64,000 nt of DNA from the NCBI GenBank assembly GCA_029907475.1, contig JARYLU010000005.1, positions 1-64,000 of the forward strand. Direction: 5' to 3'. The DNA comes from Bacillota bacterium (GTDB taxonomy: Bacteria > Bacillota > DSM-12270 > Thermacetogeniales > Thermacetogeniaceae). The notes under the pieces are model-generated. The model was not told the DNA's origin, ran no database searches, and saw only the letters and a program-made list of their open reading frames with translations. Position numbers and translations under genes: made by a program. Below, piece by piece: positions 4,577-19,713 of this stretch; position 1 is the first letter of the stretch, and the number at the start of each line of letters is the position of its first letter.

Positions 4577-4599
4577 ACCTACCTCCTTCAAGGTAACCA

Positions 4600-4628
4600 T
4601 AGTAGTTATAAGTAAATTATAACCACTA
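4600..4628. promoter_or_regulatory. Inverted-repeat operator of the vapBC-like pair
   Basis: TAGTAGTTATAA, spacer GTAAA, TTATAACCACTA: eleven of twelve arm positions match. It lies 24-52 bp upstream of the antitoxin start and contains TATAAT-like promoter sequence, the expected place for toxin-antitoxin autorepression. Confidence 0.65.
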
Positions 4629-4691
4629 TGACTACAATAATCAAGGTTTGCGATTTTTTATCAAGCCTCCGCAGGGAATGAACAAACGCTC

Positions 4692-4737
4692 TTGATCCCG
4701 GACGTACATGGTGTATAATAGATATCGAAACACGATA
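4692..4737 (+). promoter_or_regulatory. padR promoter with inverted-repeat operator
   Basis: TTGATC (4692-4697), 16 bp, TATAAT (4714-4719), then TATCG-AAACA-CGATA (4723-4737) just downstream of the -10 box. The position suits autorepression by the PadR product. Confidence 0.6.
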
Positions 4738-4781
4738 ACGGTAGGCGATACCAAGTCTGATGGGGATCAGGGGATAGTTAT

Positions 4782-5090
4782 ATGGAAGCAAAAGTTATCC
4801 GTAAGTTGTTTCTGGGATTTATCCAGGTTCATATCCTGTTCCATGCCAGCCAGGAACCTTTTTTCGGGGTGTGGATGCTTGAAGAGTTGCAGCGGCACGG
4901 CTACCGGCTCAGCGCGGGGACGCTCTATCCCATCCTGCATGACCTGGAGGCAGGGGGCCTGCTAAAAAGGGAAGAGCGGGTGGTTGAGGGCCGGATGAGG
5001 AAATACTACACCATTACCGCAAAGGGGAGCGAGGTCCTGGAGGAAGCAAAGCAGAAGGCCCGGGAGCTTTTCAAGGAGATCGGCGGTTAG
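4782..5090 (+). CDS. PadR-family transcriptional regulator
   Basis: The 102-residue protein carries the PadR winged helix: FGVWMLEELQRHGYRLSAGT leading to LYPILHDLEAGGLLKR, then a wing with RKYYTITAKG and a C-terminal helix for dimerisation. PadR proteins are usually repressors released by a small molecule or metal. The gene is followed in the same direction, 100 bp on, by a FetAB-like ABC transporter, which it probably controls together with itself through the inverted repeat at 4723-4737. Confidence 0.88.
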   Translation: MEAKVIRKLFLGFIQVHILFHASQEPFFGVWMLEELQRHGYRLSAGTLYPILHDLEAGGLLKREERVVEGRMRKYYTITAKGSEVLEEAKQKARELFKEIGG

Positions 5091-5146
5091 ACTTCTTACC
5101 TTCAGTGACCTGAGCTTTCCTGCCGGGGCAGTAAGGCAGGAGTCTT

Positions 5147-5176
5147 CGGAGATCTGGAAGGCCGGAGATCTGGAAG
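5147..5176. repeat. 14-bp direct repeat before the ABC transporter
   Basis: CGGAGATCTGGAAG occurs twice (5147-5160 and 5163-5176). The second copy runs into the ribosome binding site of the ATPase gene. It may be a slippage duplication or a regulatory site. Confidence 0.6.
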
Positions 5177-5189
5177 GGAGGCCAGTTAC

Positions 5190-5834
5190 TTGTTTTGCTT
5201 GCGTGGAGTCAGATACCGGGACATTCTGGACATTGAAAGACTGGAAATCCCGGAGGGAAAAGTAACCTGCATTGTCGGGGAAAGCGGCAGCGGAAAGACA
5301 ACCCTACTGCGGCTGTTGAACAAGCTGATAAGCTACGATAACGGGGAAATAGTTTACAAGGGCCGCTCCCTGAAGGACATCGATTCCGTTGAATTGAGGC
5401 GAAGGGTTATCATGCTTCCCCAGACACCTGTCATCTTTCCGGGGACGGTACGGGACAACCTGCTGATCGGACTGGTATTTTCCGAAAAGCCGTTGGTGGG
5501 GGAGGAAAAGCTCCTGGAAATTATGGAAATGGTTCATTTAGACAAGAACTTCGATGAGGACGCCGAAAAACTGTCGGGTGGGGAGAAGCAGAGACTGGCG
5601 CTGGGGCGGGTGCTCCTGATGGACCCGGAGGCCTTTTTGCTCGATGAGCCATCCTCTGCCCTGGACGAGGATACGGAAGAGGTGGTCATCGGAGGCCTGG
5701 TGAAATACGCCAGGGAAAGGGGCAAAACAGTGGTCATGGTCACCCATTCGAAACAGGTTGCCCGGTCTTTCTCCGATAAAATCGTCGAGGTCAACCACGG
5801 GAGAGTGGTAAGTTGCTGGGAGGGGAGCCGGTGA
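5190..5834 (+). CDS. fetA: ABC transporter ATP-binding protein, FetA/YbbL-like
   Basis: The 214-residue nucleotide-binding subunit has Walker A GESGSGKTT (about residue 31), Q-loop MLPQTP, signature LSGGEKQR (about 127) and Walker B AFLLDEPSSALD (about 148). The TTG start follows GGGAGG. It overlaps the permease by four bases (GTGA). With a UPF0014-type permease next to it, the pair matches FetAB, a putative iron exporter in Escherichia coli. The transported substrate here is inferred only from that homology. Confidence 0.85.
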   Translation: MFCLRGVRYRDILDIERLEIPEGKVTCIVGESGSGKTTLLRLLNKLISYDNGEIVYKGRSLKDIDSVELRRRVIMLPQTPVIFPGTVRDNLLIGLVFSEKPLVGEEKLLEIMEMVHLDKNFDEDAEKLSGGEKQRLALGRVLLMDPEAFLLDEPSSALDEDTEEVVIGGLVKYARERGKTVVMVTHSKQVARSFSDKIVEVNHGRVVSCWEGSR

Positions 5835-6613
5835 AGGATATCATCGAGTTGCAAATGTGGCAGGTGGCGGTCGCCTATATATTTATTGTGATCCTGTTGT
5901 TCATCGTGAGAACCAGGGGCATCCCGAGAGAAAAGGAGATTCTGGTTGCCAGCCTGCGCATGACCCTGCAGCTGGTATTGACAGGGTACATCCTTGCCTA
6001 CATTTTCACCAACAGCCATCCCCTGTACACACTCCTTGCCATCTCCGTCATGGAGGCCTTTGCCATTTACAATATCTACAAGAGGGTGAAGACCCCCCTT
6101 TCACCCCGGCTCAGGGAGATCATAGCCGTGTCCATGGTTACCGGTACCCTGGCCAGCCTCTTTTATTTTCTGCTGGTGGTCGTCCGCATCTCCCCCTGGT
6201 ATGACCCCAGATATGTGATCACCATTGCCGGCATGCTCATCGGGAACTCTATGACAGGGATTTCCCTGGGGGTAAGCCGTCTGGTGGACAGTATACGAAT
6301 CCAGCAGCACCTGGTTGAGGCCGCTCTCATGCTCGGGGCCACCCCGGGGGCAGCCTCAAAGCAAATCGTCAATGCCTCCTTTGATGCAGCCATTCTTCCC
6401 ACCATCAACTCCATGGTGGGGATGGGGATCGTTTTTCTGCCAGGCATGATGACAGGCCAGATCCTGTCGGGGGTTTCCCCCTTAACTGCCATTGAATACC
6501 AGATCGCGATCATGCTGGGGATCCTGGGGAGTGTCGCCCTGACGGTGGTTATGTTCGTCCAGCTGGGATATAAGACCTTTTTCAACGAAGAGTGCCAGCT
6601 TGAGCTTCAATAA
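5831..6613 (+). CDS. fetB: ABC transporter permease, FetB/YbbM (UPF0014) family
   Basis: The hydrophobic protein (about 260 residues, six or seven membrane helices) carries the family stretches VASLRMTLQLVLTGY and MEAFAIYNIYKR, and GMMTGQILSGVSPL near residue 210. GTG 5831 is chosen because it overlaps the ATPase stop as GTGA and has GGGAGGGG upstream. An earlier in-frame start at 5813 would overlap more deeply. It should form a homodimeric channel with the preceding ATPase. Confidence 0.87.
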   Translation: MKDIIELQMWQVAVAYIFIVILLFIVRTRGIPREKEILVASLRMTLQLVLTGYILAYIFTNSHPLYTLLAISVMEAFAIYNIYKRVKTPLSPRLREIIAVSMVTGTLASLFYFLLVVVRISPWYDPRYVITIAGMLIGNSMTGISLGVSRLVDSIRIQQHLVEAALMLGATPGAASKQIVNASFDAAILPTINSMVGMGIVFLPGMMTGQILSGVSPLTAIEYQIAIMLGILGSVALTVVMFVQLGYKTFFNEECQLELQ

Positions 6614-6725
6614 ACTGTTTTACGGGGATTGCGTGGATTGCGTGGATGCTAGGCAGGCCCGAATATAGCTCCGGCCTGGCCGGAGGGCGGTTTCCCGGCG
6701 GCACCCGGGCGGAGAGGCAACGAGG

Positions 6726-6753
6726 GCCAGGCCGCAGGTACGGCCGCTTTTTT
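6726..6753 (+). terminator. Intrinsic terminator after the fetAB-like genes
   Basis: GGCCG-CAGGTA-CGGCC followed by GC and six T. A second perfect hairpin, CTCCGGCC-T-GGCCGGAG, lies upstream near 6669-6685. Confidence 0.55.
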
Positions 6754-6760
6754 GCTTACT

Positions 6761-6789
6761 TTTAGTTAATTAAAAGCGTTATATATAAT
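6761..6789 (+). promoter_or_regulatory. Promoter of the ECF sigma/anti-sigma operon
   Basis: TTTAGT (6761-6766), 17 bp, TATAAT (6784-6789), about 20 bp before the ribosome binding site. Confidence 0.5.
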
Positions 6790-6810
6790 AGAAGAACAAC
6801 AAGGGGGGAG

Positions 6811-7317
6811 GTGAAAATAAATAACCAGTTTTATCAACTAATAAGGCCAGATTTAAAAATAATATACAAGTACCTTATAAATATGGGAGCATATCCGGAA
6901 GATGCCGAAGATATTATCCAGGATACAGTAATTAAATTCTGGGAAAACATGGACAGAATAGAACCTAGAAAAGTAAAAGCGTGGCTGTTTAAAGTGGCAA
7001 TTAATAATTACTATACCCTTCGCCGTAAGAGAAAAAATGTATTACAGGTGAAAGACGCATTAAGAGAACAGTTGTGTACTGAAAGCGAGCCTTTGTTATC
7101 TACAGATAGGACAGAGCTAATGATTCAAGTTAAGGATATTTATAGCCAAATGTCAGATAGTGAAAAAACCTTGTTGATTCTTAAATACCATCACGATTTA
7201 TCCTATAAGGAGATAGCTGCTTTTTTGAACACTACAGAAGAAACGGTAAAGACATCTTTGTCTAGAGCGAGGAAAAGTTTTAAAAAGTTGTGGGAGGGCG
7301 ACAAAAGTGCCGGATAA
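6811..7317 (+). CDS. ECF-type RNA polymerase sigma factor
   Basis: The 168-residue protein has sigma region 2 (PEDAEDIIQDTVIKFWEN, about 28-46, and KAWLFKVAINNYYTLRRKRK) and region 4 with the helix-turn-helix LSYKEIAAFLNTTEETVKTS (about 131-150). The assigned GTG at 6811 touches the AAGGGGGGAG ribosome site, so spacing is unusually short and the true start may be a rarer codon just after it. The gene overlaps a membrane anti-sigma gene by 11 bp. Both are clearly AT-rich against the surrounding GC-rich genome, which suggests transfer. Confidence 0.9.
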   Translation: MKINNQFYQLIRPDLKIIYKYLINMGAYPEDAEDIIQDTVIKFWENMDRIEPRKVKAWLFKVAINNYYTLRRKRKNVLQVKDALREQLCTESEPLLSTDRTELMIQVKDIYSQMSDSEKTLLILKYHHDLSYKEIAAFLNTTEETVKTSLSRARKSFKKLWEGDKSAG

Positions 7318-8335
7318 AAATAATATAAATCCAAATGAGCAGGAAGAAAAAATTGATGAACTATTTAACGAGGCTAAAGATGGAAAAATAGCCAAGGAAT
7401 TAAAAAGATATAAGATTATCAATATTTTAAGAACAATTGCTATTTCCGCTGTTGTGGCAATCGTAACGTTGTTAATTGCCTATTTTGTGATTGATAGTAT
7501 AAACTTCCAATATTGTCAGTCCAAGCAGTGGAAGAAGGCTGATGAAATTCAAACCTATTATGAAGTAGCCTATCCTAACCGCTATATTGGCGTGATTCAC
7601 AGATATAATAACCTATTTTCGGCAGAGTTAGAATGTGAAACCTATAAAAATATAGGTGGAAGGATTGTATTTGCAGGACTGGAAAAAAGATTAATGGGCT
7701 TGTTTGCGATTAGAGCTGGTAGTGAATGGGGAGGCATGGTTGCTCAACAACCCACAGATGAAGATCAGAATAAAGATTTCAAATATAGATCAAGTAGTGT
7801 TTATGGGTTAAGGCATTTAACATTTTTTTACCCTTATGTTAATTATGACAATAGTTTCAATGATCTAGAAATGTTGCATGAAATAGGTAATGATAAAATT
7901 GTAGAAATGGCTATATCCTTTGATCGAGAATACAGCTATAAAGAGATATCTAAGCTATTGCCGGAACAGCTTGTAACTTTTTATTGGGTAGATGATAAAA
8001 CTAAAAATGATATGAAACAAATTCAGAAATGGAAGGATATCTCCAAGGAAAATGATGTTAATGGGATTAAATTAATTAATGAATGGGGACAACGGATTGA
8101 TGAGCCGGTAAAAAGCTTTATAATTGCTATGGAAAGGCTCAAAAATGGAGATTTTGGACACAATGCCTACAAGGATTTATATCGAAGAATAGCGGGCCAT
8201 GACGGAGAATTAAAGGAAGATGATTTAAGAATAATGGGGGCTGTCCTTGTTGGAAGTCCAAAAGAGCTAACTTCATTAGAAGGAATGTCTTTCATTAAAC
8301 ATGCTGCTCTAGGTACAGTTGTAGATAAATATTAG
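7307..8335 (+). CDS. Membrane anti-sigma factor with sigma-regulator domains
   Basis: The 342-residue protein has an acidic cytoplasmic N-terminus (about 1-40), one membrane helix (TIAISAVVAIVTLLIAYFVI, about 43-62) and a long extracytoplasmic part. Order and overlap with the ECF sigma gene fit the Sigma_reg_N/Sigma_reg_C anti-sigma type of Firmicutes. It should hold the sigma factor at the membrane until an external signal arrives. Target genes are not evident in the window. The GTG start has GGGAGG upstream. Confidence 0.75.
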   Translation: MPDKNNINPNEQEEKIDELFNEAKDGKIAKELKRYKIINILRTIAISAVVAIVTLLIAYFVIDSINFQYCQSKQWKKADEIQTYYEVAYPNRYIGVIHRYNNLFSAELECETYKNIGGRIVFAGLEKRLMGLFAIRAGSEWGGMVAQQPTDEDQNKDFKYRSSSVYGLRHLTFFYPYVNYDNSFNDLEMLHEIGNDKIVEMAISFDREYSYKEISKLLPEQLVTFYWVDDKTKNDMKQIQKWKDISKENDVNGIKLINEWGQRIDEPVKSFIIAMERLKNGDFGHNAYKDLYRRIAGHDGELKEDDLRIMGAVLVGSPKELTSLEGMSFIKHAALGTVVDKY

Positions 8336-8344
8336 TGTGAACCT

Positions 8345-8375
8345 CCCCCAGGACAAGCCTGGGGGCTTCTCATTT
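8345..8375 (+). terminator. Terminator of the sigma/anti-sigma operon
   Basis: CCCCCAGG-ACAAG-CCTGGGGG, an eight-base-pair GC stem, followed by a T-rich tail (CTTCTCATTTCAT). Confidence 0.75.
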
Positions 8376-8482
8376 CATCAATTTTTAATTTTTCAAATAG
8401 GAGAATTTAGGAGAAATTCTGGTAAGAAGCTCCCACTGTCGTATCATGTAATGTCTCTCCCACCATCACCCGACCATCATGT

Positions 8483-9295
8483 CTAAGCCGGTTTCACTAA
8501 AAACTCGTTGGCGATTACCACCTTGACCATGTGATCGTCGATCAGGCGCTTCTGCCTGATAGCAGCATCAAACAAGCATGCCAGACAGATGTTGTTCACC
8601 TTGCGGGCGATTCCCCCGGAGAATTCGAAGATCACATCCAGGGCGTCATCGGTAAAAATAGACGAAGCCGCCCCTGCCATTTTGAGATGGTGAGACACAT
8701 AGCCTCCCGTCTCATCCCGGTCCATAGGGGGAAGGTGATAGCGCAAGTTTAACCGCTGAGCGATCGCCTCATAGATCTGCAGCTGGAAGACCCGCCTCAA
8801 TTCCGGCTGCCCAACCAGAATCAGGCTCATCGGGTTGTAGGAGTCAAAGCGAAAATTGAGCAAGAACCTGATCTCCTCCAGCATTTCCCTGGCCAGCAGG
8901 TGGGCCTCGTCAACGATCACCACCGGAATCTAGCGGCCTGTCTCGGATAAGTCCAGAATAACCTGGTGTAGCTGCCGCTTGGCATCACCCCGGAGGAAAC
9001 GGGGCGTGCAGTCAAGCTGCTGTAAGGCCTCCCAGTAAAAGTTGCGTGGGGTCAGGGCAGAGTCGCTGATGTAGATCACCCGGTAGCGGTTAGGATTGAG
9101 CAGGGTCACCAGCTGGCGCAGGGCGGTGGTCTTACCTGACCCCACATCGCCTGTGGCCAGAGCGAATAAACGCTTCTCCGCCGCGTACTTGAGCCGGGAT
9201 ACCAACTCCTCAAAACCAGGGGCCCTGAAGCAGTCCTCTACCGGAAAATCTCTCTGGAAGGGCGTGCGCTCGAAACCGAAGAAGGGCTCAAACAT
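8483..9295 (-). pseudogene. ExeA/TniB-like transposition ATPase interrupted by an amber codon
   Basis: The frame encodes an AAA ATPase of the ExeA type that accompanies DDE transposases: FEPFFGFERTPFQRD at the N-terminus, Walker A GDVGSGKTTALRQL (about residue 50), Walker B VVIVDEAHLL, and a C-terminal lid. An in-frame TAG at 8930-8932, between LSETGR and IPVVIVDEAH, separates Walker A from Walker B. The sequence on either side is otherwise intact and in phase, so a single substitution explains it. The ATG at 9295 overlaps the stop of the upstream frame. Confidence 0.8.
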
Positions 9296-9482
9296 TCTTA
9301 TCACCGCCATCCAGGCTGCGGAAGGAGATCGCTCCGAACCTCCGCTGTAGCCGGTTCTTGCTCTTCTCTTCCAGAACCTTTAAAAGGCGGGAGCCGTCTG
9401 GTGTGGGACTGCCCGCCGGTATCTCCTCGCCGGCGCTGTCGCTAAACTCCTTGATGACCAGGGGCGCTGCCGTGCCCTTCAT
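9288..9482 (-). pseudogene. Small frame upstream of the ExeA-like gene, probable transposase tail
   Basis: This 64-residue frame (start MKGTAAPLVIKEFSDSAG) ends exactly over the ATPase start, the coupling expected between transposase and helper. It is too short for a transposase and is preceded by a TAA. It is probably the C-terminal remnant of the DDE transposase of the same element, whose remainder is lost. No recognisable domain is visible. Confidence 0.45.
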
Positions 9483-9752
9483 CCGATTATGAGCTATACA
9501 GGGTTAAATAATGTGGGAGGAAACAGTTTTTTTTGTGTGAAAATTGTTAATTAAAATATTAAAAATTATCCATGGAGCCAGGATTATTTGGATTTATCTG
9601 GGAAATCTGTACGCCTGTTTTTGGACTCGTGTAGTTGTTTTCTATTCATATATTATGGCATCTTGTGGACTTTTTGGTTAATAACTTAACGTTGTACACT
9701 AATTGCTTGTGGTAAAATATAGAATAGAAAGTTGTTTGTTGGGGGTGTAAAA
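9483..9752. other. AT-rich gene-free stretch
   Basis: No gene is supported. The DNA is strongly AT-rich and marks the edge where the transposon remnant was truncated. A GGGGGTGT ribosome site for the following lipoprotein lies at the right end. Confidence 0.5.
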
Positions 9753-10325
9753 GTGAGAAAAATAACTCTACTTATCATATCAGGATTATTATTAGTTGTG
9801 CTTGCAGGATGTAACGAAGCTAACCTTACACCGTCTTCGAGGGAAAAACGCCTGGAAGATAATCCAGATATAGTATATCGTGTTGACGCAGATGGGAACC
9901 TAAGAGGCCCTCTCCCTATCTCTCTGGAGTCGCTAATCATCAACGAGCTTGAGGAAAGATTAGGTATTTCTCCTGATAAAGTTGAGGATAAATCTCCAGA
10001 GGATTTTGAAAAACTCGGCCATGAGTTAAAGAGTACCTTAACCTCGTTTTCCCAAATCACAATCGTATCAGCTCATAAATTGTTGAATCGTTACTTCTGG
10101 CCGGAAGATGAAAGCGAGAAAATCTCCCTCAACCAGTTAAAGGAGGAGATTGCGGAACTAGAAAAAGAGTGGGAAAACGCTGTAGCGGAGATGGAAGAAT
10201 TTAAGGACATACCTGCTGTCGAAGCGTATACCGGGGTTAAGATAAATGTTATTTCCACATCCAGTGCTAAAAAAGCAGAAACCTCTCTCCTGGAAAAACT
10301 CAAATATTATCAAATATATGAGTGA
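9753..10325 (+). CDS. Predicted lipoprotein of unknown function
   Basis: GTG 9753 behind GGGGGTGT gives a classical lipoprotein signal: VRKITLLIISGLLLVVLAGC, with the lipobox Cys at about residue 20. The mature part (about 170 residues) is acidic and helical, with a likely coiled coil around NQLKEEIAELEKEWENAV, and resembles no family known to me. It should be tethered outside the membrane. It stands alone between mobile-element debris and the agr locus. A longer TTG start at 9732 would put charged residues out of register before the signal. Confidence 0.7.
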   Translation: MRKITLLIISGLLLVVLAGCNEANLTPSSREKRLEDNPDIVYRVDADGNLRGPLPISLESLIINELEERLGISPDKVEDKSPEDFEKLGHELKSTLTSFSQITIVSAHKLLNRYFWPEDESEKISLNQLKEEIAELEKEWENAVAEMEEFKDIPAVEAYTGVKINVISTSSAKKAETSLLEKLKYYQIYE

Positions 10326-10344
10326 TGTTTGAGGAAGTGATGCT

Positions 10345-10520
10345 GTGAAGCTAATGAAACGTGCGCCGTCCTCTGTCGGGTTTCCACAGAAGACCAAGCA
10401 GAACGAACCTCACTTGATACCCAAGCGGAAATCTGTATGGAGGAAGCAAGAAGGCGAGGTTATCGCGTTACAGAGGATGACATTTTTAAAGAAGACGTTA
10501 CAGCGGAGCACTGGAATTGA
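10345..10520 (+). pseudogene. N-terminal fragment of a serine recombinase, frameshifted
   Basis: GTG 10345 reads VKLMKRA. A one-base deletion then shifts to the frame AVLCRVSTEDQAERTSLDTQ followed by AEICMEEARRRGYRV, up to TGA 10518. RVSTEDQ is the catalytic-serine motif of the resolvase/invertase fold, and SLDTQ...RGY is typical of large serine integrases. Only about 55 residues remain, with no recombinase or zinc domain afterwards. An alternative 77-codon frame over the same DNA is not protein-like. Confidence 0.7.
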
Positions 10521-10680
10521 TGCGAGACCAGTGCTCCATCAACTTTGGGAGAAATATCGTATCTTCTGCGAATCCTAAATGCTGTTAATTTTTTTAGGTA
10601 TTCTGTTGTCAATAAGAAGGAATAATCGGAATTAATGTCGTATACTTGTTGCATGTAAAATTTATCATACGTGGATAAGG

Positions 10681-11358
10681 ATGGAAGCCATGCACCAGTT
10701 CGCCAGCAGGATCAGTGTGGGTTTAATAAAATTTTGCAACCTCCCGGAGGCGAAAATCCCGGTTCTCACCTATGGCCTCGAGGTGGTTCTTTCGACCCTT
10801 TTGAGCCTGGCGGTGCTGCTTTTGGGGGGGCTGTTGGCCGGGACCCCGATCCTAGTTCTCACCGCGGCATTTACCGGGGCGGCTTTACGTGCCGTCGCGG
10901 GTGGTGTTCACGCCTCGGGTCCCTATTTCTGTGCCTTTTTCGGGGGGGTTGTTTTTACCCTCATCGGCCTGGCGGCGCGGGAGGCCGGGATTGCTGTGAG
11001 CCTCCGGCTTTTATTGCTTATTGTGGCCTTAACCGGCTTTGCCGGTTTTTCAATGGTATCCCTTTACGCCCCGGCCGGCTGCGCAAGGCGGCCCTTCACC
11101 GGGAAAGAGGAGTTTTTAAAAAAGCGGCGCGCCAGATACGTGGTTTTAAGCTGGACGCTCCTGGCGGGTGCGGTTCCGGCTCTTACCTTGCTGTGGCCAG
11201 ATTTCCTGCTGCAGGAAAGCATTTTCCTGCGGCAGGTTCTTTTTGCAAGCACCCTGGGACTATGGTGGCAGCTTTTCACCCTGACGCCGGTCGCGTACCG
11301 GCTCCTCCCACGTCTTGAAAAAGGCGCGGGAAGGCTCTTGATTAGAAAGGAGGGATGA
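10681..11358 (+). CDS. agrB: AgrB-type peptide-processing membrane protease
   Basis: The 225-residue polytopic protein has the AgrB cysteine-protease motif AGGVHASGPYFC with His77 and Cys84, matching the catalytic pair known for staphylococcal AgrB. It has about five or six hydrophobic segments. AgrB cuts the AgrD propeptide and forms the thiolactone ring for export. The stop is followed within three bases by agrD. Start ATG 10681 or ATG 10690 are both possible. Confidence 0.92.
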   Translation: MEAMHQFASRISVGLIKFCNLPEAKIPVLTYGLEVVLSTLLSLAVLLLGGLLAGTPILVLTAAFTGAALRAVAGGVHASGPYFCAFFGGVVFTLIGLAAREAGIAVSLRLLLLIVALTGFAGFSMVSLYAPAGCARRPFTGKEEFLKKRRARYVVLSWTLLAGAVPALTLLWPDFLLQESIFLRQVLFASTLGLWWQLFTLTPVAYRLLPRLEKGAGRLLIRKEG

Positions 11359-11360
11359 GA

Positions 11361-11498
11361 ATGCTTAAAAAGCTGGCGGTTTGGCTGGCAGGCTGCACCG
11401 CCCTGGTGCTTTCAGTTGTCGCTGCCGGTTTTGTAGGACCTTTGTGTACTTTTTCTTTATATCAACCTGAAGTGCCGGAGGTGTTAAAGAATAGATAG
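11361..11498 (+). CDS. agrD: AgrD cyclic (thio)lactone autoinducer propeptide
   Basis: The 45-residue peptide starts at ATG 11361, seven bases after GGAGG (an ATG at 11355 overlaps the agrB stop). Amphipathic leader MLKKLAVWLAG, then the probable signal core around Cys29 (PLCTFSL), then the C-terminal recognition tail YQPEVPEVLKNR, which closely matches the Y-x-P-x-x-P-E tails of clostridial AgrD. The ring would form between Cys29 and a residue about four positions later. Its small size hides it from simple ORF calls. Confidence 0.88.
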   Translation: MLKKLAVWLAGCTALVLSVVAAGFVGPLCTFSLYQPEVPEVLKNR

Positions 11499-11516
11499 CT
11501 TAGGAGGCGGCTTTTT

Positions 11517-12026
11517 TTGGAGGATCTCAGGGTGCTCCTTTTTCTTCATTTGATTGAGCCAGGTATTATGTCGTATTGCTCCCTTTCCCTCTTGGGTTTG
11601 CGGATTCCTTTTAAGCTTCTGGCAGTCGTCAGCGCCGGGGGAGGGCTCGCGGTTTACCTGCTGCGGGGGCTTTATGCCTACACGGGAATTCCTTTCGGCT
11701 CCCACACCCTCCTGATGATTCTGGTGATGGTACTCTTATACCGGTTCGTTGCGAAGATCGAGTGGGGGATCGGCACTGTGGCCGCCCTCCTGGGCTTCAT
11801 TCTGGTGCAGCTGTCCGAGGCTTGCCTGGCGGTCCCGCTGGTAAGCTTATTTAAGCTGACCGTTGATGAAATTTTGGTTAACCCCTGGCTGCACATAGCT
11901 TTTGGCTGGCTGGTGGATCTACCCGTGGTCATCCTTGCCCTGGTCTGCGCCCTGACGGGGTTCCGCCTCGTTGATTTGAATAGGGAGCTCAAAGAGCTTC
12001 CGGGGGTAGAAGAAGAAAAAGAGTAA
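11517..12026 (+). CDS. Membrane protein of the agr locus, paralogue 1
   Basis: This 169-residue protein has four or five membrane helices and no catalytic domain. TTG start with TAGGAGG nine bases upstream. It shares with the next gene the pattern IP-x-G-x-HTLL, WGI, a long hydrophobic run, DEIL-x-x-P, DLP and GFRL, so the two are tandem duplicates. The size and placement between agrD and the kinase resemble a detached AgrC-like sensor domain, but the function is unknown. The C-terminal tail ends in acidic ELPGVEEEKE. Confidence 0.75.
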   Translation: MEDLRVLLFLHLIEPGIMSYCSLSLLGLRIPFKLLAVVSAGGGLAVYLLRGLYAYTGIPFGSHTLLMILVMVLLYRFVAKIEWGIGTVAALLGFILVQLSEACLAVPLVSLFKLTVDEILVNPWLHIAFGWLVDLPVVILALVCALTGFRLVDLNRELKELPGVEEEKE

Positions 12027-12152
12027 GGCGCCAGATCCGGGTCCGGTTTTTCTAATTTCTATAATACAGGAAGAAGCAATCACGGCCAGTGCTGGTCTGC
12101 GATTCTGTTTATCTTTTCCGGGAGACTCGTTGGAGAGAGGGGGCGGCGGGGT

Positions 12153-12635
12153 GTGGCGGCAATTAATGTTTTTCTGGAAGGATTCCTGTTGTCCTATGTA
12201 GGTCCCACCCTCCTGGGCTTTAGACCGTGCGCGAAAAAGGTCTTACTGGGTGGGATTGTGACCGGGGGTGCCGGTTTTTTCTTCCGGAGCCTCGCCGACC
12301 TCCACTACATTCCGCTGGGCGCCCATACCTTGCTCGGCGTTCTCGTCCTGACCCTTGTTCTGCGCTTTGCCTTGCCGGCGCCGTGGGGGATTGCCAGCGC
12401 CGCCTCCCTGCTCAGTTTCACCCTGCTCCTCCTCACGGGAACCCTGACCGTTTTCGGAGCGGTTTTAATCCTGGGCCTGGATTTGAAAGAAATACTGGCA
12501 GATCCACCCCGGCGTTTCCTGGTTGCGCTTCTGGAGGACCTCCCTTTAGGCATGCTCGCCCTGCTTTGCTGGAGCCGGGGGTTCCGGTTGTTCCGGATCG
12601 AGACAGGCGACCAGGATGTATCGGAGAGACTATAA
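12153..12635 (+). CDS. Membrane protein of the agr locus, paralogue 2
   Basis: The 160-residue polytopic protein aligns with the preceding gene over most of its length (IPLGAHTLLGVLVL, APWGIASAASLL, LKEILADPP, GFRLFRIE). GTG start behind a GAGGG-rich stretch. It has no enzymatic motif. It probably acts with the histidine kinase next to it as a signal-sensing membrane unit, or modulates the peptide processing. A much longer frame through the same DNA in another phase is spurious. Confidence 0.72.
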   Translation: MAAINVFLEGFLLSYVGPTLLGFRPCAKKVLLGGIVTGGAGFFFRSLADLHYIPLGAHTLLGVLVLTLVLRFALPAPWGIASAASLLSFTLLLLTGTLTVFGAVLILGLDLKEILADPPRRFLVALLEDLPLGMLALLCWSRGFRLFRIETGDQDVSERL

Positions 12636-12748
12636 GTATTATCGAGGGTGGAGCAGGATTTTTGAGGAAGCCCGTCGTAGCTTTATTAACAGGGAGTTTT
12701 TGGCTTCCCCGGGCAGGCGGGTGTGTTGTCATGTTCAGGAGCGAATCG

Positions 12749-13657
12749 ATGAACAGCTTCAAGTTGCCCTTTGACTGGAAGGCGGTCCTGTTCCTCAACG
12801 TAATCCTGGCGCAGGCCTTTCTTGTTCTGTTTTTTGGAGTGCTCCAGTTCTGGAACATTTTCGGTCTGTTGCAGGATCGTGTGCTCACGACCCTGGCAGT
12901 TTTTTACATTGCCGCGGGCGGGTTTTTTAGTCTGGCGGCTATTTTTATGCTCCGGAGCGTGGTCAGGCTGGTGCGCGCCCGGGCGGAGGCCGAAGTCAAC
13001 CGGATCCGCCTCCAGGAAACCCGGCAGATGCTGGATGTGCTGCGGACGCAGCGCCACGATTACTTAAACCACCTCCAGGTGATTTACGGTCTTATTCACG
13101 TAGGCAAAACCAGATTCATCCAGGATTATATCAGCCAGGTCAATGAAGAAATCCAAAATTCTTCAAGGGTCTTTACGGCATTAGTGCACCGGCCCGAGAT
13201 TGCGGGGCTGCTTATGCGGAAGTTGGCGCAGGCTGAAGCACTGGGAATTTCTTTTAATGTAGACTTGAAAACCGATTTGGTGTTGCTGGCGATCCCTCCT
13301 TTGGATTTTTCCAGGGTGTTGGGGAACCTGATCGATAACGCCCTGGACGCGGTACAGACGGTTCCCGAGGAGCAGCGGCGCATCTCCTTTGAGATGAAGG
13401 AAGAGGAGAATGGCTATGTCGTCAAGATCACCAATTTTCGCCCTCTCATCCCCCACGAGTATTTAACGAAAATTTTTCGTAAAGGCTTCACCACCAAAGC
13501 GGGAAAAGGGGAGGGGCTCGGTCTTTATATTGTGAAAAGTCTTGTTGAAAAAAACCACGGGATGATATCGGTTGAAAGCAACGAAGAGACAGGAACGTCC
13601 TTTACCCTCCGGTTTCCCAAACCTGCTTACCACCACGTTGAGCTTCCCCCTGCCTGA
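12749..13657 (+). CDS. AgrC/SpoOB-like sensor histidine kinase
   Basis: The start ATG 12749 has AGGAGC upstream (ATG 12731 is also in frame). Two membrane helices (about residues 10-70), a coiled linker, the phosphoacceptor box TQRHDYLNHLQVI (about 108) and an HATPase domain with NLIDNALDA (about 200) and GEGLGLYIVKSL (about 258). The RHDYxNHLQ form is that of AgrC/LytS-related and SpoOB-like kinases. It lacks the six-helix sensor of AgrC, which the two preceding genes may supply. No response regulator follows. Confidence 0.85.
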   Translation: MNSFKLPFDWKAVLFLNVILAQAFLVLFFGVLQFWNIFGLLQDRVLTTLAVFYIAAGGFFSLAAIFMLRSVVRLVRARAEAEVNRIRLQETRQMLDVLRTQRHDYLNHLQVIYGLIHVGKTRFIQDYISQVNEEIQNSSRVFTALVHRPEIAGLLMRKLAQAEALGISFNVDLKTDLVLLAIPPLDFSRVLGNLIDNALDAVQTVPEEQRRISFEMKEEENGYVVKITNFRPLIPHEYLTKIFRKGFTTKAGKGEGLGLYIVKSLVEKNHGMISVESNEETGTSFTLRFPKPAYHHVELPPA

Positions 13658-13738
13658 AAAAATTCATGCATAAATCCCTCCTGCCAGGCATAGGATGATC
13701 CAGGAAAGACGACCATTTAAAGGAAGGAGGTTTCATGT

Positions 13739-14380
13739 GTGTGGGATTTTGAGCGTCTGAGGGAGGAGCAAAAAGAGAGCCGCAGGTTCCTCCTGAGTTG
13801 TCTGGTGCTGGTAGGATTGGTGAGCGCGCTGCTTGTTACCGGTGGGTGCGATTTAGCAGAAAAGCTGCAGGGGTTTAAGCAAAACCGCGCCCCGGCGCAG
13901 TCGGAAGAAAATTTGCCGGACTTGTTTCCCGAGGACATCGGTACCCTTGCGGAAGAGCCGGAAAAAACAAGCGTATCCCTCTATTTTAAAGACGAAGAGG
14001 GGCGGTATCTTGTCCGGGAAACGCAGGAGATCGTTAAAGTTCCCGGCATCGCAAGGGCAACGCTGCAAGCCCTCTGCGAGGGGCCCGCGGGTACTGCTTT
14101 AAAACCGAGCCTTCCGGCAGGGACAGAGCTGCGGGAGCTAAACATCAGGCCTGACGGGACGTGTATCGTTGATTTAAGCCGGGCAGTTACAGAGATTCCC
14201 GGGCAGGATCCGAAGGCAGAGGCCCTGGCTGTTTATGCGGTTGTAAATACCCTCACGGAGTTCCCAACGGTGGAAAGAGTCAAAATCCTTGTGGAGGGGC
14301 AGCTCCGGGAAACCCTCGCCGGGCACATTCCCATTGATGAGCCGCTGCTCCGTAATCTTACCTTTGTTAAAAATTCGTAA
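13739..14380 (+). CDS. GerMN-domain lipoprotein
   Basis: GTG 13739 lies eight bases after GGAGG. A basic N-terminus, a hydrophobic segment (LLSCLVLVGLVSALLVTGGC) with lipobox Cys near residue 39, a linker, then a GerMN domain from about residue 75 (VSLYFKDEEGRYLV, IVDLSRAVTE, VNTLTEFPTVERVKIL). GerM proteins act in spore cortex peptidoglycan metabolism. In Bacillus gerM lies beside racE and rph, and murI and rph lie 5-8 kb downstream here. The next gene is a peptidoglycan amidase. Confidence 0.85.
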   Translation: MWDFERLREEQKESRRFLLSCLVLVGLVSALLVTGGCDLAEKLQGFKQNRAPAQSEENLPDLFPEDIGTLAEEPEKTSVSLYFKDEEGRYLVRETQEIVKVPGIARATLQALCEGPAGTALKPSLPAGTELRELNIRPDGTCIVDLSRAVTEIPGQDPKAEALAVYAVVNTLTEFPTVERVKILVEGQLRETLAGHIPIDEPLLRNLTFVKNS

Positions 14381-14395
14381 ATTCAATTATTTTTT

Positions 14396-14483
14396 CCCAC
14401 CCTTGTTTTTGGCAGGAAATTTGGCAATTGGTGTCGAACCTACCATTTTAAAAGAAATTCCAGCAGGATACAACAAGGGTGGG
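14396..14483 (+). promoter_or_regulatory. Sigma-H-like promoter inside an inverted repeat that masks the amidase ribosome site
   Basis: Arms CCCACCCTTGTT (14396-14407) and AACAAGGGTGGG (14472-14483) are perfect complements. The right arm contains the amidase ribosome site. Between them GCAGGAAAT, 12 bp, GTCGAACC (14412-14441) fits the RnAGGAwWW/RnnGAATww pattern of sigma-H promoters. RNA from the internal promoter would lack the left arm. Confidence 0.5.
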
Positions 14484-14488
14484 TTCAG

Positions 14489-16606
14489 ATGGAAAAGTTC
14501 GTGTCGAAAAAGGGCCGAAGAAATTTTAATCGGGGTCTTCCGGCGGGAAGGAGATTGTATCCCCCGGCGGCCCTTTTTATTTTGTTTCTTCTAGGAATAG
14601 GGATTTTGGGGAGTGTTATTCTTTTCTGCACCCCGGCGTTTGCTGCGGGTTTTTCAGATTTGCAGGGGCATTGGGCCGCCGGGGAGATTCAGAAAGCGGT
14701 TGCAGAGGGTTACCTGAAAGGTTACCCGGATGGAACCTTTCAGCCCGACCGGGTAGTGACCCGCGCCGAGTTTGTGGCACTCGTAAACGGTGCCTTCCAG
14801 GTGAAACCATCTCAAAAGGTGCAGGTATCTTTTAAAGATGTTAAGCCGGGCGACTGGTTTGCGCCCGCGGTCGAGGCGGCCCTGGCGGCAGGCTACATAG
14901 AAGGCTACCCGGACGGAACCTTCCGGCCCCAAAAAGCCGTGAACCGCCAGGAGGCGGCCTGCCTGCTGGCGAAACTCCTGAAGCTAGAGGGAGAGGGGAA
15001 CATCGCGTTTACAGATGCCGGGAAGATCGCGGCCTGGGCGCGGCCTGCTGTTGCTGCGCTTGTGGCAAAGGGGATCATGGGAGGGTATCCCGACGGGACC
15101 TTTCGCCCGGCCCGTTCCATCACGCGGGCGGAAGCGGCCGCGCTGGTGGGACGCGCCCGGGAGGGGCAGGAAGTGACTCCCGTTGCAGTTAGCCTGGTGG
15201 TGGTTGAGGAGATCGTCAACGTCCGGTCGGGACCGGGTACGAGTTACCAGGTTCTGGGACAGGTCCGTGCCGGGGATACCCTCCAGGCGCGCGGCCGCAG
15301 CGGTAATAACTGGTACGAAGTGGATTTTGGGGGAGGAAGGGGATGGATTGCGGGGTGGCTTGTTCAGGTTGCCCAGGCACCTCCTCCCAGCCGGGACGAG
15401 CCCGGCACCCTCGAGGTGAAAGTGGAGCGCCAGGCGAGACAACTGGTGGTTACTTTAGTAGGGAATAAGGATGCCTCCTACCTGTGGGAGGAGAAAGCGA
15501 ACCCCCAGCGCCTGGTAGTAGCCGCACGGGGGGTTACGGTTGTTCGCACGCCCTTAGAAATAAACGTCCGGGAAGCCGGATTGGAGCGAATCGTGACGAG
15601 TTTTCCTGCAGAGGAGCCGGGGACTGCGGAGGTGGAACTCCTTTTTGAGGAGCACCCCTTACCAGTGTTTTATCAGGTAGATGCAGGTGCGCCAGGGGAA
15701 TTCCGGGTAACCCTACCCAACCAGATCATGCAGGCAGAGACCGCTTCCGACGGAGAGACACTTCTGATCACCCTGCGGGGTACGGCGCCGCTTGCTTACC
15801 AATCTTTCAGCTTGAGCGGCCCGAAGCGGCTCGTTTTCGACTTTAACGATTTTGTCCTACACCCGGCTCTGCTTGGCTGGGAACAGGAGGCGAACCTTCC
15901 GGAGTTCGGCAGAGTGCGTCTCGGCCAATTCCAACCCGATGTAGCCCGGCTTGTTGTGGAGACGACGCGGGGTGCTTCTTTTGCGGCACAAACCCGGCTG
16001 GGGGGCAGGGAACTCCTTCTGAGCATCAGGACTGCGGGGCTGGCCGGAAGGCGGGTAGTCCTCGATCCGGGGCACGGGGGGCGCGATCCGGGAGCGATTG
16101 GGCCCGGTGGCGTCCAGGAAAAGGATGTCAACCTGGCGATTGCCCTTCAGGCCCGGGATATCCTCCGCCAGCAAGGGGTTGACGTAATTTTAACCAGAAA
16201 TGGAGATCAGGAAAAGGAACTGCCTGAACGCGCTCAAGAAGCTAACAACAGCAATGCGGAGGTTTTTGTGAGCATTCACGCCAATTCCGCTAACAACGCC
16301 GCGATCGGAGGGACGGCAACTTACACGTATGCACCCCCGAATACGGCTCTCGGCCTCCAGCGGGAGGCCCGCTTCTACCTGGCGCAACTGCTTCAGGAGG
16401 AGCTCGTTCGGGCTTTAGGGTTGCGAGACGCCGGGATCTATGAAGCGAACTTCGCGGTGTTGAGGTATACCGCGATGCCTGCTGTGCTGGTAGAGGTCGC
16501 TTTTCTCAGCAATCCCGCCGAGGAGCAGTTGCTGGTCAACCCCGAATTCCAGGGGCGGGCTGCGGCAGCCATCGCCCAGGCGATCATCCGCTTTTTAACA
16601 GAGTAG
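14489..16606 (+). CDS. SLH-domain N-acetylmuramoyl-L-alanine amidase
   Basis: The 705-residue exported protein has a signal peptide (to about 52), three SLH domains (FSDLQGHWA with GYPDGTFQP; GYPDGTFRP; GYPDGTFRP, about 53-220), a bacterial SH3 domain (VNVRSGPGTSYQVLG, about 245), two AMIN-type regions (about 305-505) and an Amidase_3 catalytic domain from about 520. Zinc ligands are visible: His in DPGHGGRDPG, the Glu in QEKDVNL, His in VSIHANS, and the catalytic Glu in LVEVAFLSN. It cleaves peptidoglycan stem peptides while bound to the wall through SLH. Its ribosome site lies in an inverted repeat. Confidence 0.95.
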   Translation: MEKFVSKKGRRNFNRGLPAGRRLYPPAALFILFLLGIGILGSVILFCTPAFAAGFSDLQGHWAAGEIQKAVAEGYLKGYPDGTFQPDRVVTRAEFVALVNGAFQVKPSQKVQVSFKDVKPGDWFAPAVEAALAAGYIEGYPDGTFRPQKAVNRQEAACLLAKLLKLEGEGNIAFTDAGKIAAWARPAVAALVAKGIMGGYPDGTFRPARSITRAEAAALVGRAREGQEVTPVAVSLVVVEEIVNVRSGPGTSYQVLGQVRAGDTLQARGRSGNNWYEVDFGGGRGWIAGWLVQVAQAPPPSRDEPGTLEVKVERQARQLVVTLVGNKDASYLWEEKANPQRLVVAARGVTVVRTPLEINVREAGLERIVTSFPAEEPGTAEVELLFEEHPLPVFYQVDAGAPGEFRVTLPNQIMQAETASDGETLLITLRGTAPLAYQSFSLSGPKRLVFDFNDFVLHPALLGWEQEANLPEFGRVRLGQFQPDVARLVVETTRGASFAAQTRLGGRELLLSIRTAGLAGRRVVLDPGHGGRDPGAIGPGGVQEKDVNLAIALQARDILRQQGVDVILTRNGDQEKELPERAQEANNSNAEVFVSIHANSANNAAIGGTATYTYAPPNTALGLQREARFYLAQLLQEELVRALGLRDAGIYEANFAVLRYTAMPAVLVEVAFLSNPAEEQLLVNPEFQGRAAAAIAQAIIRFLTE

Positions 16607-16653
16607 TGATCTGTCGGCAAGCCTTAGCCGGGGTTCTTTATTTTCACCACAGG

Positions 16654-16682
16654 TTGTTTTTTCCATCATCGGGTGCTACAAT
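16654..16682 (+). promoter_or_regulatory. Sigma-A promoter of the coiled-coil gene
   Basis: TTGTTT (16654-16659), 17 bp, TACAAT (16677-16682), 27 bp upstream of the gene start. Confidence 0.6.
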
Positions 16683-16709
16683 GAAAGCAGGTGAAAGTAG
16701 GTGAGCGCC

Positions 16710-17057
16710 ATGCCCGACGACATGCTTAAAGAGACTGCTACAAGCTACGATCAGCCGCCGCGCGGTTTGCTTTCCCAGGAGTTTTTCTTTTTGCTTCAGC
16801 GCATTGACAGGCTGGACGAGAAGCTGAGCGGGGAGATCAGGGCACTTGATGAAAAACTGAGCGGGGAGATCAAAGCAGGAGACGGCAGGCTGAGCGAAGA
16901 GATTAAAGCCCTTGATGATAAGTTGAGCAGGGAGATTAAAGCCCTGGAGGAAAAGTTGGGCAATAAACTGAGCAACCTCGGGTTATGGTTTGTTGGCGCC
17001 ATTGTGACTCTTATTGCAGGATTTGCGGGAGTTATTGTTACGCTTGTGCTGAAATAA
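16710..17057 (+). CDS. Coiled-coil membrane-anchored small protein with 11-residue repeats
   Basis: The start ATG 16710 follows AGGTGA by five bases (a GTG at 16701 overlaps that site). Four or five imperfect hendecads of the form LDEKLSGEIKA fill about residues 33-80, followed by one membrane helix (LWFVGAIVTLIAGFAGVIV) at the C-terminus. The layout resembles phage XhlA-type holin accessory proteins and small DUF1640-like proteins, but no firm family is claimed. It has its own promoter and terminator, so it is a single-gene unit. Confidence 0.75.
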   Translation: MPDDMLKETATSYDQPPRGLLSQEFFFLLQRIDRLDEKLSGEIRALDEKLSGEIKAGDGRLSEEIKALDDKLSREIKALEEKLGNKLSNLGLWFVGAIVTLIAGFAGVIVTLVLK

Positions 17058-17073
17058 ATCTATTGGTTTCCAG

Positions 17074-17100
17074 CCCCAATTCAAGGGGTTTTCTTTTTTT
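17074..17100 (+). terminator. Terminator of the coiled-coil gene
   Basis: CCCC-AATTCAA-GGGG followed by TTTTCTTTTTTT. The stem is short but the T tract is strong. Confidence 0.6.
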
Positions 17101-17138
17101 CAGGAGGTGGCGTCTGCAACAAAACGTCCTGAACTCAT

Positions 17139-17225
17139 AAAAAAGACCCGGCACTCAGAGAGGCAACAGGTCAGCCCGCTTTTGAGGAACAGGGTGCCAT
17201 CTCTGAAATGCCGGGTTTTATTTTC
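17139..17225 (-). terminator. Large terminator hairpin of the acetate carrier gene
   Basis: On the minus strand CCCGGCA and CAGAGA pair with TCTCTG and TGCCGGG (17147-17215) around a 38-nt loop, followed by TCTTTTTT. A T-rich tail also follows on the plus strand, so it can work both ways. Confidence 0.65.
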
Positions 17226-17262
17226 AGGCCGGGTAGGAAAAAGAATAATTTACTTAAATAAT

Positions 17263-17865
17263 TTACTTGTTCAGGGGACCTACCGGTAGCACCGTACGCC
17301 CGTAAACAGTGTTGAGGATTCCTGCCGCAGAAGCGTACCAGGCAGCAAAAGCAGTGATAATACCCATAATTCCTCCTGGGACACTGGAGATCAGGCCGAA
17401 TTCTGCAAGGTCCAGTAAAATAAAGGTGATTTCTAAGGTTGTAAAGACCGTGCACACGGCGACGTTCACACGGAAAGAGCCGATCCACATATAGGTGTTA
17501 AAAATGGTAAAGCCGATTAGGAAGATACCTGTGAGCGGCCCGCCCCACTTTACGGACACGCCGTACGGTTCGAGTAAAGTTAGTAAAGTCATCAAGGCGA
17601 CAGACAACCAGAAAGCCCCGTACGTGGAGAAGGCAGTCGCGCCAAAGACGTTGTTCTTCTTGTACTCCTGCATGCCGGCCAGCAACTGGGCGAGTCCCCC
17701 GTAGAAGAAGGCTAGCCCCAGGAAGGCATGGCCTTCAAGTATTTTGGCATTGGACATGCTCAGCACGAAAGTTGTCAGGGCGAACCCGCCAAGTCCCAGG
17801 GGAGCGGGATCGGCGGTGGCCGCGACCTGGCTTACTTCGGCCTTAACGTTGTTTTGCTCACACAT
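17263..17865 (-). CDS. satP: SatP/YaaH (GPR1/FUN34) acetate carrier
   Basis: The 200-residue protein has six membrane helices and the family signature DPAPLGLGGFALTTFVLS (about 19-36), with AFFYGGLAQLLAGMQEYKK and FSTYGAFWLS following. AceTr proteins move acetate or succinate, in bacteria as proton-coupled carriers or anion channels. It is a single gene ending in a strong hairpin, with a long untranslated upstream region. In an acetogen or acetate oxidiser it probably handles acetate; the direction of flux cannot be read. Confidence 0.93.
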   Translation of the reverse strand: MCEQNNVKAEVSQVAATADPAPLGLGGFALTTFVLSMSNAKILEGHAFLGLAFFYGGLAQLLAGMQEYKKNNVFGATAFSTYGAFWLSVALMTLLTLLEPYGVSVKWGGPLTGIFLIGFTIFNTYMWIGSFRVNVAVCTVFTTLEITFILLDLAEFGLISSVPGGIMGIITAFAAWYASAAGILNTVYGRTVLPVGPLNK

Positions 17866-18324
17866 ACTGTCTTAAACCCCCTTTACGCCTAAATTAAAGA
17901 CCTCCCGGAAATTTTTATCTACTATTTATCTGCCATCAGGGGTACCTGACTGAGAATGCCTACCCGGCCTTTGTGCGTGGATTTGTAAAGTAGCTTCGCA
18001 TTTCAGGTGCTTAAAAGTTAAAGTAACCCCTCCCCCCTCCCGTTCAGGTGGCATAAATTTACAAAAGTAAATTGGGATTTCGGAAGATTAAAACGGACGT
18101 GAGGCTTCTGTTGGAGCGATTCCCGTGTTGGGTTGCTGGAGAAACGCCTTTTCTGGTGAGATGAAGCGAATCATGTCAAGATAGGCGATTGCATGTATAT
18201 ATTTCTCATTATAAACCGGTGCTGAGATTTTTGTAAAGGGCACTTTTTAAAAAAAATTTATGATATAATCTATAAGAATTTGCGGTCATTGAAATAAATA
18301 AACTAAAATGGGGAGTGAATTCTT
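17866..18324. other. Long divergent intergenic region between satP and the DUF2179 gene
   Basis: It holds the regulatory regions of both flanking genes. TCAGG-GGTA-CCTGA near 17937-17950 is a short hairpin in the satP leader. TTGACATGATTC on the minus strand near 18175 could be a -35 box for satP. TATAAT at 18264-18269 is the likely -10 box for the plus-strand gene. No known riboswitch or coding sequence was recognised. Confidence 0.4.
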
Positions 18325-18849
18325 GTGTCCCCCCTCTGGCTCGTCTGGTTGTTGGTTTTCTTCGCCCGGGTTGCAGACATGTCTCTCGCTACCGTAAGGA
18401 CGCTTTTTCTTGTTCGGGGGCGGTCATGGCAGGCGGGGAGTATTGGCTTTGTGGAGGCCTTCCTTTATATCATAGCCCTGAACATGGTCTTCAGGCATCT
18501 GGATAATATCTGGGGTTTTCTGTTTTATGCCGCCGGTTTTGCCTGCGGAAACATTTTAGGCGCTTTCGTTGAAGAGAAGCTTGCGGTAGGGTATCTGGCG
18601 GTTCAGGTTATTCCCAAGCGCGATCCGGACCTTCTTACGGAAAAGCTGCGGAATGCGGGGTTTGGGGTGACCGTCTGGGAAGGGGAAGGACGCGAAGGAA
18701 GACATCAGGTTTTAAATATTGTCTTAAATCGCAAGGACCGGGACCGGCTGTTTTCTCTTGTGAACGACTACGATCAGAGCGCCTTTATTTCTGTCAGCGA
18801 GGCACGGGCAAGGCAGGGTGGCGTTTTTGGACGGCGCAAGGCGAAATGA
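18325..18849 (+). CDS. UPF0316/DUF2179 membrane protein
   Basis: The 174-residue protein starts at GTG behind GGGGAG. Three membrane helices occupy the first 90 residues, with DMSLATVRTLFLVRG as the family landmark, followed by a cytoplasmic DUF2179 domain (GYLAVQVIPK ... AGFGVTVWEGEGREG). The biochemical role is unknown. DUF2179 domains also occur in YitT-type transporters and may bind a ligand. It is 15 bp upstream of murI and probably co-transcribed. Confidence 0.85.
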   Translation: MSPLWLVWLLVFFARVADMSLATVRTLFLVRGRSWQAGSIGFVEAFLYIIALNMVFRHLDNIWGFLFYAAGFACGNILGAFVEEKLAVGYLAVQVIPKRDPDLLTEKLRNAGFGVTVWEGEGREGRHQVLNIVLNRKDRDRLFSLVNDYDQSAFISVSEARARQGGVFGRRKAK

Positions 18850-18864
18850 AATGGAGATGATAGC

Positions 18865-19713
18865 GTGATGCAGCAGCCGGTTGGAATCTTTGATTCCGGT
18901 GTGGGCGGTTTAACCGTTACCCGGCTCATTTTTTCCCACCTTCCCGATCAAGAAATCGTCTATTTCGGAGATACGGCTCACGTTCCTTACGGGTCCCGTT
19001 CCCCCCAGGAACTGATCAGGTTCGGAGACCAGATCGTTTCTTTTTTAATTAAGTTCGGAGTTAAGGTTATCATTGCCGCTTGCAATACCAGTTCCTCGAT
19101 TTCCCTCCCCTTTTTGCGGGAGAAATACGATCTCCCCATTCTGGGCGTGGTGGAACCGGGTGTGAAAGCCGCGCTGAAAGTGACGAAAAATAAAAAAGTG
19201 GGGATCATTGCCACAGAAGCCACGGTCAGGAGCGGCGCTTACCCGCGCACGATAAAGCTTTTCGATGCAGGGGTAGAAGTTTTTATGCAGGCCTGCCCCC
19301 GTTTTGTTCCGCTGGTAGAGGCGGGGAAAGTTGCATCCCCGGAGGCGCGGGAGGCTGCCGTCTCTTATCTTGAACCCCTCAAAAGGGCAGAGATTGATAC
19401 CCTCGTCCTCGGCTGTACCCATTACCCTTTCCTTACCCCTGTGATTGCCGAAATCCTGGGACCTGGTGTAAAACTTGTGGATCCTGCCGAGGAAACAGTC
19501 AAAGAACTCATATCTCTGCTTGCAGAGGAGAGAGTTGCCCTGGTCCAGGCCCGGGGTCCAAAACACCGCTTTTTTGCGAGCGGCCCTCCAGGCTCGTTTT
19601 ATACCGCCGGGCGGCATTTCCTGGGCGCCTTCCCTTTTACGGTGGAGCAGGTTAACCTGAACGAGGAAAGGCGGAAAATTATAACCGGGGAGAGTCCTCC
19701 GGGGAGTGAGTGA
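18865..19713 (+). CDS. murI: Glutamate racemase
   Basis: MurI converts L- to D-glutamate for peptidoglycan. The 282-residue protein has both catalytic cysteines: AACNTSSS (about residue 73) and LGCTHYPFL (about 184), plus FDSGVGGLTV at the N-terminus and YFGDTAHVPYGS. GTG 18865 or ATG 18868 may be used. It overlaps the following hydrolase gene by four bases. In Bacillus racE lies in the same neighbourhood as gerM and rph, in agreement with this cluster. Confidence 0.95.
   Translation: MMQQPVGIFDSGVGGLTVTRLIFSHLPDQEIVYFGDTAHVPYGSRSPQELIRFGDQIVSFLIKFGVKVIIAACNTSSSISLPFLREKYDLPILGVVEPGVKAALKVTKNKKVGIIATEATVRSGAYPRTIKLFDAGVEVFMQACPRFVPLVEAGKVASPEAREAAVSYLEPLKRAEIDTLVLGCTHYPFLTPVIAEILGPGVKLVDPAEETVKELISLLAEERVALVQARGPKHRFFASGPPGSFYTAGRHFLGAFPFTVEQVNLNEERRKIITGESPPGSE

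Follow-up and report, generated by a model that had tools for sequence, protein, structure and literature searches.

The agr-type locus at positions 10,681–13,657 of the window (the whole stretch of 64,000 nucleotides of Bacillota DNA that was analysed) very probably encodes a quorum-sensing system in which the AgrC receptor is naturally split into two polypeptides. AgrC is normally a single protein, and in staphylococci the sensor and the kinase form one chain, with AgrA following. In the window, agrB and agrD are followed by two tandem genes for membrane proteins, here termed OrfA and OrfB, and then by a gene for a histidine kinase (Table 1). The proposal of the initial annotation, that sensing is detached from the kinase, gains support from four observations: sensor and kinase are naturally fused in relatives, the separate parts tile these fusions end to end, the two parts have similar trees, and the pair is kept in genomes where AgrB was not detected.

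Table 1. Features of the agr-type locus, with positions in the window
Feature	Position	Strand	Description
agrB	10681..11358	+	Membrane peptidase maturing the signal peptide; Pfam PF04647, E=4e-25
agrD	11355..11498	+	47-aa autoinducing peptide precursor; TIGR04223, E=1.7e-8
Predicted signal core Cys-Thr-Phe-Ser-Leu	11445..11459	+	From sequence and placement before PEVP
orfA	11517..12026	+	169 aa, predicted five-helix sensor subunit; TTG start, AGGAGG upstream
orfB	12153..12635	+	160 aa, tandem paralogue of orfA; predicted second sensor subunit
Kinase	12749..13657	+	Alternative ATG at 12731; SPOB_a 4e-17, HATPase_c 3e-19 (Pfam)

Both features by which an agr system was recognised on the signal-producing side are present, namely an AgrB protein with its catalytic His and Cys residues and an AgrD protein with a core Cys and a P-E-x-P motif, and a cyclic peptide product is predicted. 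The AgrB pair is His77-x6-Cys84, an arrangement shared by 95 of the 96 AgrB homologues collected, and a genome-wide search found this to be the only AgrB copy. The start of agrD and the end of agrB share 4 bases, and the spacing in its product, C-x6-PEVP, is the commonest among the AgrD candidates collected (73 of 101). Judged from the sequence, the signal core would end at the Leu residue or at the Tyr that comes next; the AgrD orthologue of the same genus has CTLSF at this place. The placement of the core relative to PEVP is the same as in staphylococcal AgrD.

The kinase consists of a SPOB_a dimerisation domain, which contains the phospho-accepting His (QRHDYLNH), followed by a HATPase domain. 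Its frame opens at 12227 in the list of open reading frames; a 302-aa orthologue places the gene start at 12731 or 12749, and the latter is favoured by this orthologue together with an upstream AGGAG. Hydropathy analysis gave two membrane helices, as did a low-confidence structural model (pLDDT 54), and the genome has one kinase of this type. The initial annotation of a two-helix histidine kinase located after agrB, agrD and a pair of paralogues is in agreement with both hydropathy and Pfam.

OrfA and OrfB share 38% identity over 138 aa (E=3e-13), consistent with their description as tandem homologous polytopic proteins. Hydropathy analysis gave mostly 4–5 helices in OrfA-type proteins, and an AlphaFold2 model of OrfA displayed five long helices at low confidence (pLDDT 56). 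It had been considered that the pair might prove to belong to an unrelated, well-known transporter family; however, neither protein had a meaningful match in Pfam or NCBIfam, transporter profiles included, and a sequence search of the PDB with the OrfA family gave no match. Searches of genome contigs with OrfA and OrfB as single-protein queries, and of phages and plasmids by tblastn with two OrfA-family members, were also without a match.

All five genes are present, in the same order, in another genome from this genus (G001), with protein identities of 65–83%. The pN/pS values between the two genomes are 0.37 for agrB, 0.31 for agrD, 0.27 for orfA, 0.46 for orfB and 0.21 for the kinase gene, which indicates that these are real genes under purifying selection. 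The GerM-like and amidase genes downstream are also conserved in G001. Just upstream of the agr region, the window encodes a sigma factor and an anti-sigma factor (Sigma_reg_N/C; 6811–8335), and two adjacent minus-strand frames (8483–8923 and 8930–9310) resemble pieces of one ExeA-like ATPase gene, as would result from a stop or a frameshift within it.

Protein searches identified relatives of OrfA in 31 of 101 related genomes, and four of the matches fell in frames of ~450 residues encoding AgrC-type kinases that start with an OrfA-like domain. With a profile made from 33 members, the family was detected in 162 of the 398 genomes sampled from the phylum (~40%). Among the full-length matches listed, frame lengths were two-peaked, at ~151–214 or 440–496 aa, with one outlier of 282. 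In total, 27 of 132 family members from this phylum have the OrfA-like domain and the kinase fused in one frame and 105 are standalone; the profile that found the fused members included four fused sequences. Profiles for the tiling analysis were built from 60 standalone OrfA-type proteins and 56 small kinases, with no fused sequences used. The standalone OrfA profile matched the 27 fused kinases at E values of 1e-22 to 1e-44. In every one of them the OrfA profile covered the N-terminal ~155 residues (model positions 1–155 of 163) and the kinase profile, beginning with two membrane helices, covered the rest (5–285 of 288), leaving 4–22 residues (median 12) between the two matches. The lowest score of a fused protein was 68.5 bits, whereas the 663 controls (AgrB proteins, and N-termini that had been shuffled or reversed) reached at most 5.9 bits. 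By hydropathy the fused proteins have seven (18 proteins) or six (9 proteins) membrane helices and the small kinases mostly two, and the split form has about five plus two.

Residues 25–276 of the window kinase align with positions 141–397 of the AgrC model NF046015 (414 positions). Several fused relatives align with most of the same model, for example from residue 19 to 422 (positions 8–395) and from residue 27 to 426 (positions 16–398); the scores are far under the equivalog cut-off, as expected of distant homologues. Since the window kinase matches the AgrC model only from position 141 onwards, OrfA would be the missing N-terminal sensor. Both halves of AgrC therefore have homologues at the locus, the kinase directly and OrfA through the fused N-termini, but they are found in two polypeptides and not in one. 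The predicted split point lies inside the AgrC sensor region, with the kinase running from the last two membrane helices onward; the regions equivalent to extracellular loops 1 and 2 of AgrC should lie in OrfA and OrfB, and that equivalent to loop 3 in the kinase. The initial annotation had regarded the kinase as minimal. It does lack a full sensor, but it is not simply minimal, as it corresponds to AgrC from the last two helices onward.

Approximately 120 neighbourhoods were mapped for agrB, agrD, kinase, LytTR regulator and OrfA-type genes. Either agrB or agrD lies within 5 kb of 91 of the 105 standalone members, and about 60 OrfA-type genes adjoin a same-strand small kinase gene, most of them overlapping it or lying <20 bases away. 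The fused members are mostly near agrB (21 of 27) and near a LytTR-type regulator (26 of 27). In a tree of the OrfA domain (132 rows), clade 1 holds 92 rows, comprising 60 split and 27 fused members and a few others, and includes both window proteins. The window subclade (17 rows from 15 loci, support 96) has the usual order agrB-agrD-orfA-kinase and is entirely split. The fused label requires 6 changes on the OrfA tree, at least 3 of them forced by well-supported branches, and 7 split/fused changes, at least 4 forced, are required on the kinase tree, where the groups are largely those of the OrfA tree; both trees are unrooted, so that individual changes are not assigned to fusion or fission.

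Clade 2 (40 rows) counts against a split AgrC, because its members are mostly located beside agrB with no small kinase, and the family is thus not restricted to AgrC kinases. Most clade 2 OrfA-type genes precede and overlap agrB, which would fit a model in which OrfA and OrfB help AgrB to make or export the peptide while sensing is left to the two-helix kinase alone. Such a role for the kinase would also be compatible with an engineered two-helix S. aureus AgrC that reportedly shows an AIP effect (PMC3841183). However, both window proteins fall in clade 1, which is tied to the kinase by adjacency and fusion. Moreover, two genomes in which AgrB was not detected, G005 (94% complete) and G012 (95% complete), keep the OrfA-kinase pair (loci L033 and L194, respectively), in G005 at the same place beside GerM and amidase genes. 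This suggests that in clade 1 OrfA goes with the kinase and not with peptide maturation. OrfA distances also track those of the kinase slightly better than those of AgrB (r=0.88, a value reached in 0 of 1000 permutations and partly reflecting shared species history, against 0.84). In addition, the part of AgrC that corresponds to OrfA contains loops 1 and 2, which set peptide recognition in S. aureus (PMC10482373). Together, these data make a role as AgrB partners very unlikely and favour the split receptor. The pairs in G005 and G012 could possibly be receptors that eavesdrop or that respond to another ligand.

Several further arrangements were observed in the family. A second arrangement consists of OrfA, agrB and agrD genes, the first two overlapping by a few bases, with kinase genes absent from the surrounding 5 kb (L164, L168, L173, L175, L177, L193, L061, L065, L069 and similar loci). 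Clade 2 loci (L057, L200, L055, L213, L197, L210, L221, L224, L183 and L229) have different output proteins beside agrB and agrD, among them a Cache-domain chemoreceptor, a GGDEF-HD protein, and hybrid kinases or PAS-HisKA kinases, and the free AgrC-type sensors of this clade may feed other signalling pathways. The tree label ‘L’ denotes a large neighbour that is not always a kinase; some neighbours matched by the large-kinase profile were rejected on their Pfam domains (an MCP in L057 and the GGDEF-HD protein in L200). Insertions of 1.5–1.8 kb that contain a transposase interrupt the small agr kinase gene in three genomes (L037:6614-8104, L155:6921-8763 and L234:4147-5664). The transposases are by appearance of three different kinds, as if the receptor had been repeatedly switched off.

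The presence of two sensor genes beside one kinase gene raises the question of what OrfB does. If only OrfA were the receptor half, OrfB could act as an immunity protein, decoy or antagonist that would titrate either kinase or peptide. OrfB has evolved faster than OrfA, with 65% as opposed to 76% identity to the same-genus protein and the higher pN/pS value of the two, and sits on a long branch of the OrfA-type tree; moreover, the G005 kinase has a single adjacent sensor. Nevertheless, OrfB retains the conserved Arg and Gly positions, is under purifying selection, and has parallels in the tandem sensors that recur elsewhere (L046, L183, L196, L206, L215, L219 and L229), so that such a role of OrfB is considered rather unlikely. 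It is tentatively proposed that the split AgrC is modular, with interchangeable OrfA and OrfB sharing one kinase and either two peptides being read or mixed receptors being formed. One relative (L034) has tandem kinases, and if the modular proposal holds, these and the tandem sensors would be modules of the system.

The initial annotation also placed the response regulator elsewhere, and indeed none was found near the locus (window positions 4001–20000 scanned), nor at any of the 15 subclade loci, some of which are near contig ends, to a distance of 5 kb from OrfA. An AgrA-type receiver-LytTR regulator is therefore absent from the locus, and AgrA is not the normal next gene in the window subclade (0 loci). 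Outside this subclade LytTR regulators are found with many relatives, split and fused alike, and G006 has two complete orfA-kinase-agrB-LytTR-agrD sets. The 114-contig window genome, which is 99.65% complete, gave 22 receiver matches, one of them under the family cut-off. Its only LytTR protein, 135 aa long and with no receiver, is encoded near the end of contig C33 (L100:4871-5278) and shares 54% identity with the C-terminal half of a complete G001 regulator; it is either a truncated gene or reflects an assembly limit. Two single-domain receivers (C3:71599 and C16:40264) and Spo0A (C1:31527), all unlinked to the locus, are candidates only.

The lone LytTR gene with no receiver, taken together with G005, in which AgrB was not detectable, could be read as the decay of an agr system whose receptor gene broke in two and whose regulator was lost. 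All of the genes are under purifying selection, however, and the kinase, AgrB and AgrD motifs are intact. Furthermore, about 60 loci belonging to many families show the split state, which is common to the whole window subclade. On the grounds of selection and distribution a decaying locus was rejected as extremely improbable.

The split receptor could operate as follows. AgrB, judged from its conserved residues, would cut and cyclise AgrD to give a thiolactone peptide. OrfA, and probably OrfB, would be five-helix sensor subunits equivalent to the N-terminal part of AgrC, where extracellular loops 1 and 2 are located, and would assemble in the membrane with the 302–308-residue kinase. The kinase subunit would give the last two sensor helices, loop 3, and the dimerisation/phosphotransfer and ATPase domains. 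Binding of the peptide to a sensor subunit may then alter kinase activity via the two kinase helices. With two sensors and one kinase, either a mixed receptor on a kinase dimer or alternative receptors may be formed. The phosphoryl group would pass to a regulator encoded elsewhere; as the genome has no intact AgrA-type regulator, an orphan receiver is, tentatively, the best guess, and it might conceivably feed sporulation control. Another of the Clostridia has a verified phosphorelay (PMC11210211).

The likeness to S. aureus AgrC (NF046015, HPK10-type) lies in the kinase half (model positions 141–397), the fused relatives and the linkage to agrB and agrD, whereas here there are two genes, cut in the membrane region, with a duplicated sensor half and no adjacent AgrA. 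Nearly the same cut was made in the engineered AgrC-TM5-6C (S. aureus residues 134–430, two helices plus kinase; 297 aa as opposed to 302–308 aa here), which is active alone as a constitutive kinase (PMC3841183). That protein is a laboratory truncation with no separate sensor half, whereas at this locus the sensor half is encoded naturally. The agr3 genes of the C. difficile phage phiCDHM1 likewise have no response regulator, but their AgrC is one protein (PMC3901668). The nearest published remark concerns cassettes of the phages Abouo, Davies and Emery, which also have no response regulator; beside agrB and agrD they encode one or two membrane proteins with no kinase domain (PMC3901668). In Abouo (gp44-gp46; L235:26243-27550) the gene for a 222-aa membrane protein overlaps agrB by 8 bases and precedes an agrD-like gene; this protein, gp44, has a merely suggestive similarity to the OrfA model (E=0.03) and was not confirmed as an OrfA relative. 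A membrane protein encoded as two assembling pieces is also known from Split-Doa10 of Kluyveromyces (PMC3464245), an unrelated eukaryotic ubiquitin ligase that underwent one fission, whereas the present case is a receptor kinase with several split/fused changes. No description of a split AgrC was found in the open-licence papers searched, and an earlier report elsewhere is possible.

Although AgrC has been studied heavily as a peptide receptor and is a drug target, a 2023 review records no full-length structure and an unknown peptide-binding site (PMC10482373). The split AgrC is apparently an undescribed, widespread form of this well-known communication system, in which the receptor appears to have been cut between its recognition helices and its signalling helices with both pieces maintained. 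With such a pair, the peptide-binding part and the route of the signal to the kinase could be tested directly. The analysis also gives a likely function to an unnamed family of membrane proteins found in ~40% of the sampled genomes of the phylum, and it suggests that genome surveys seeking a one-piece AgrC will miss agr receptors.
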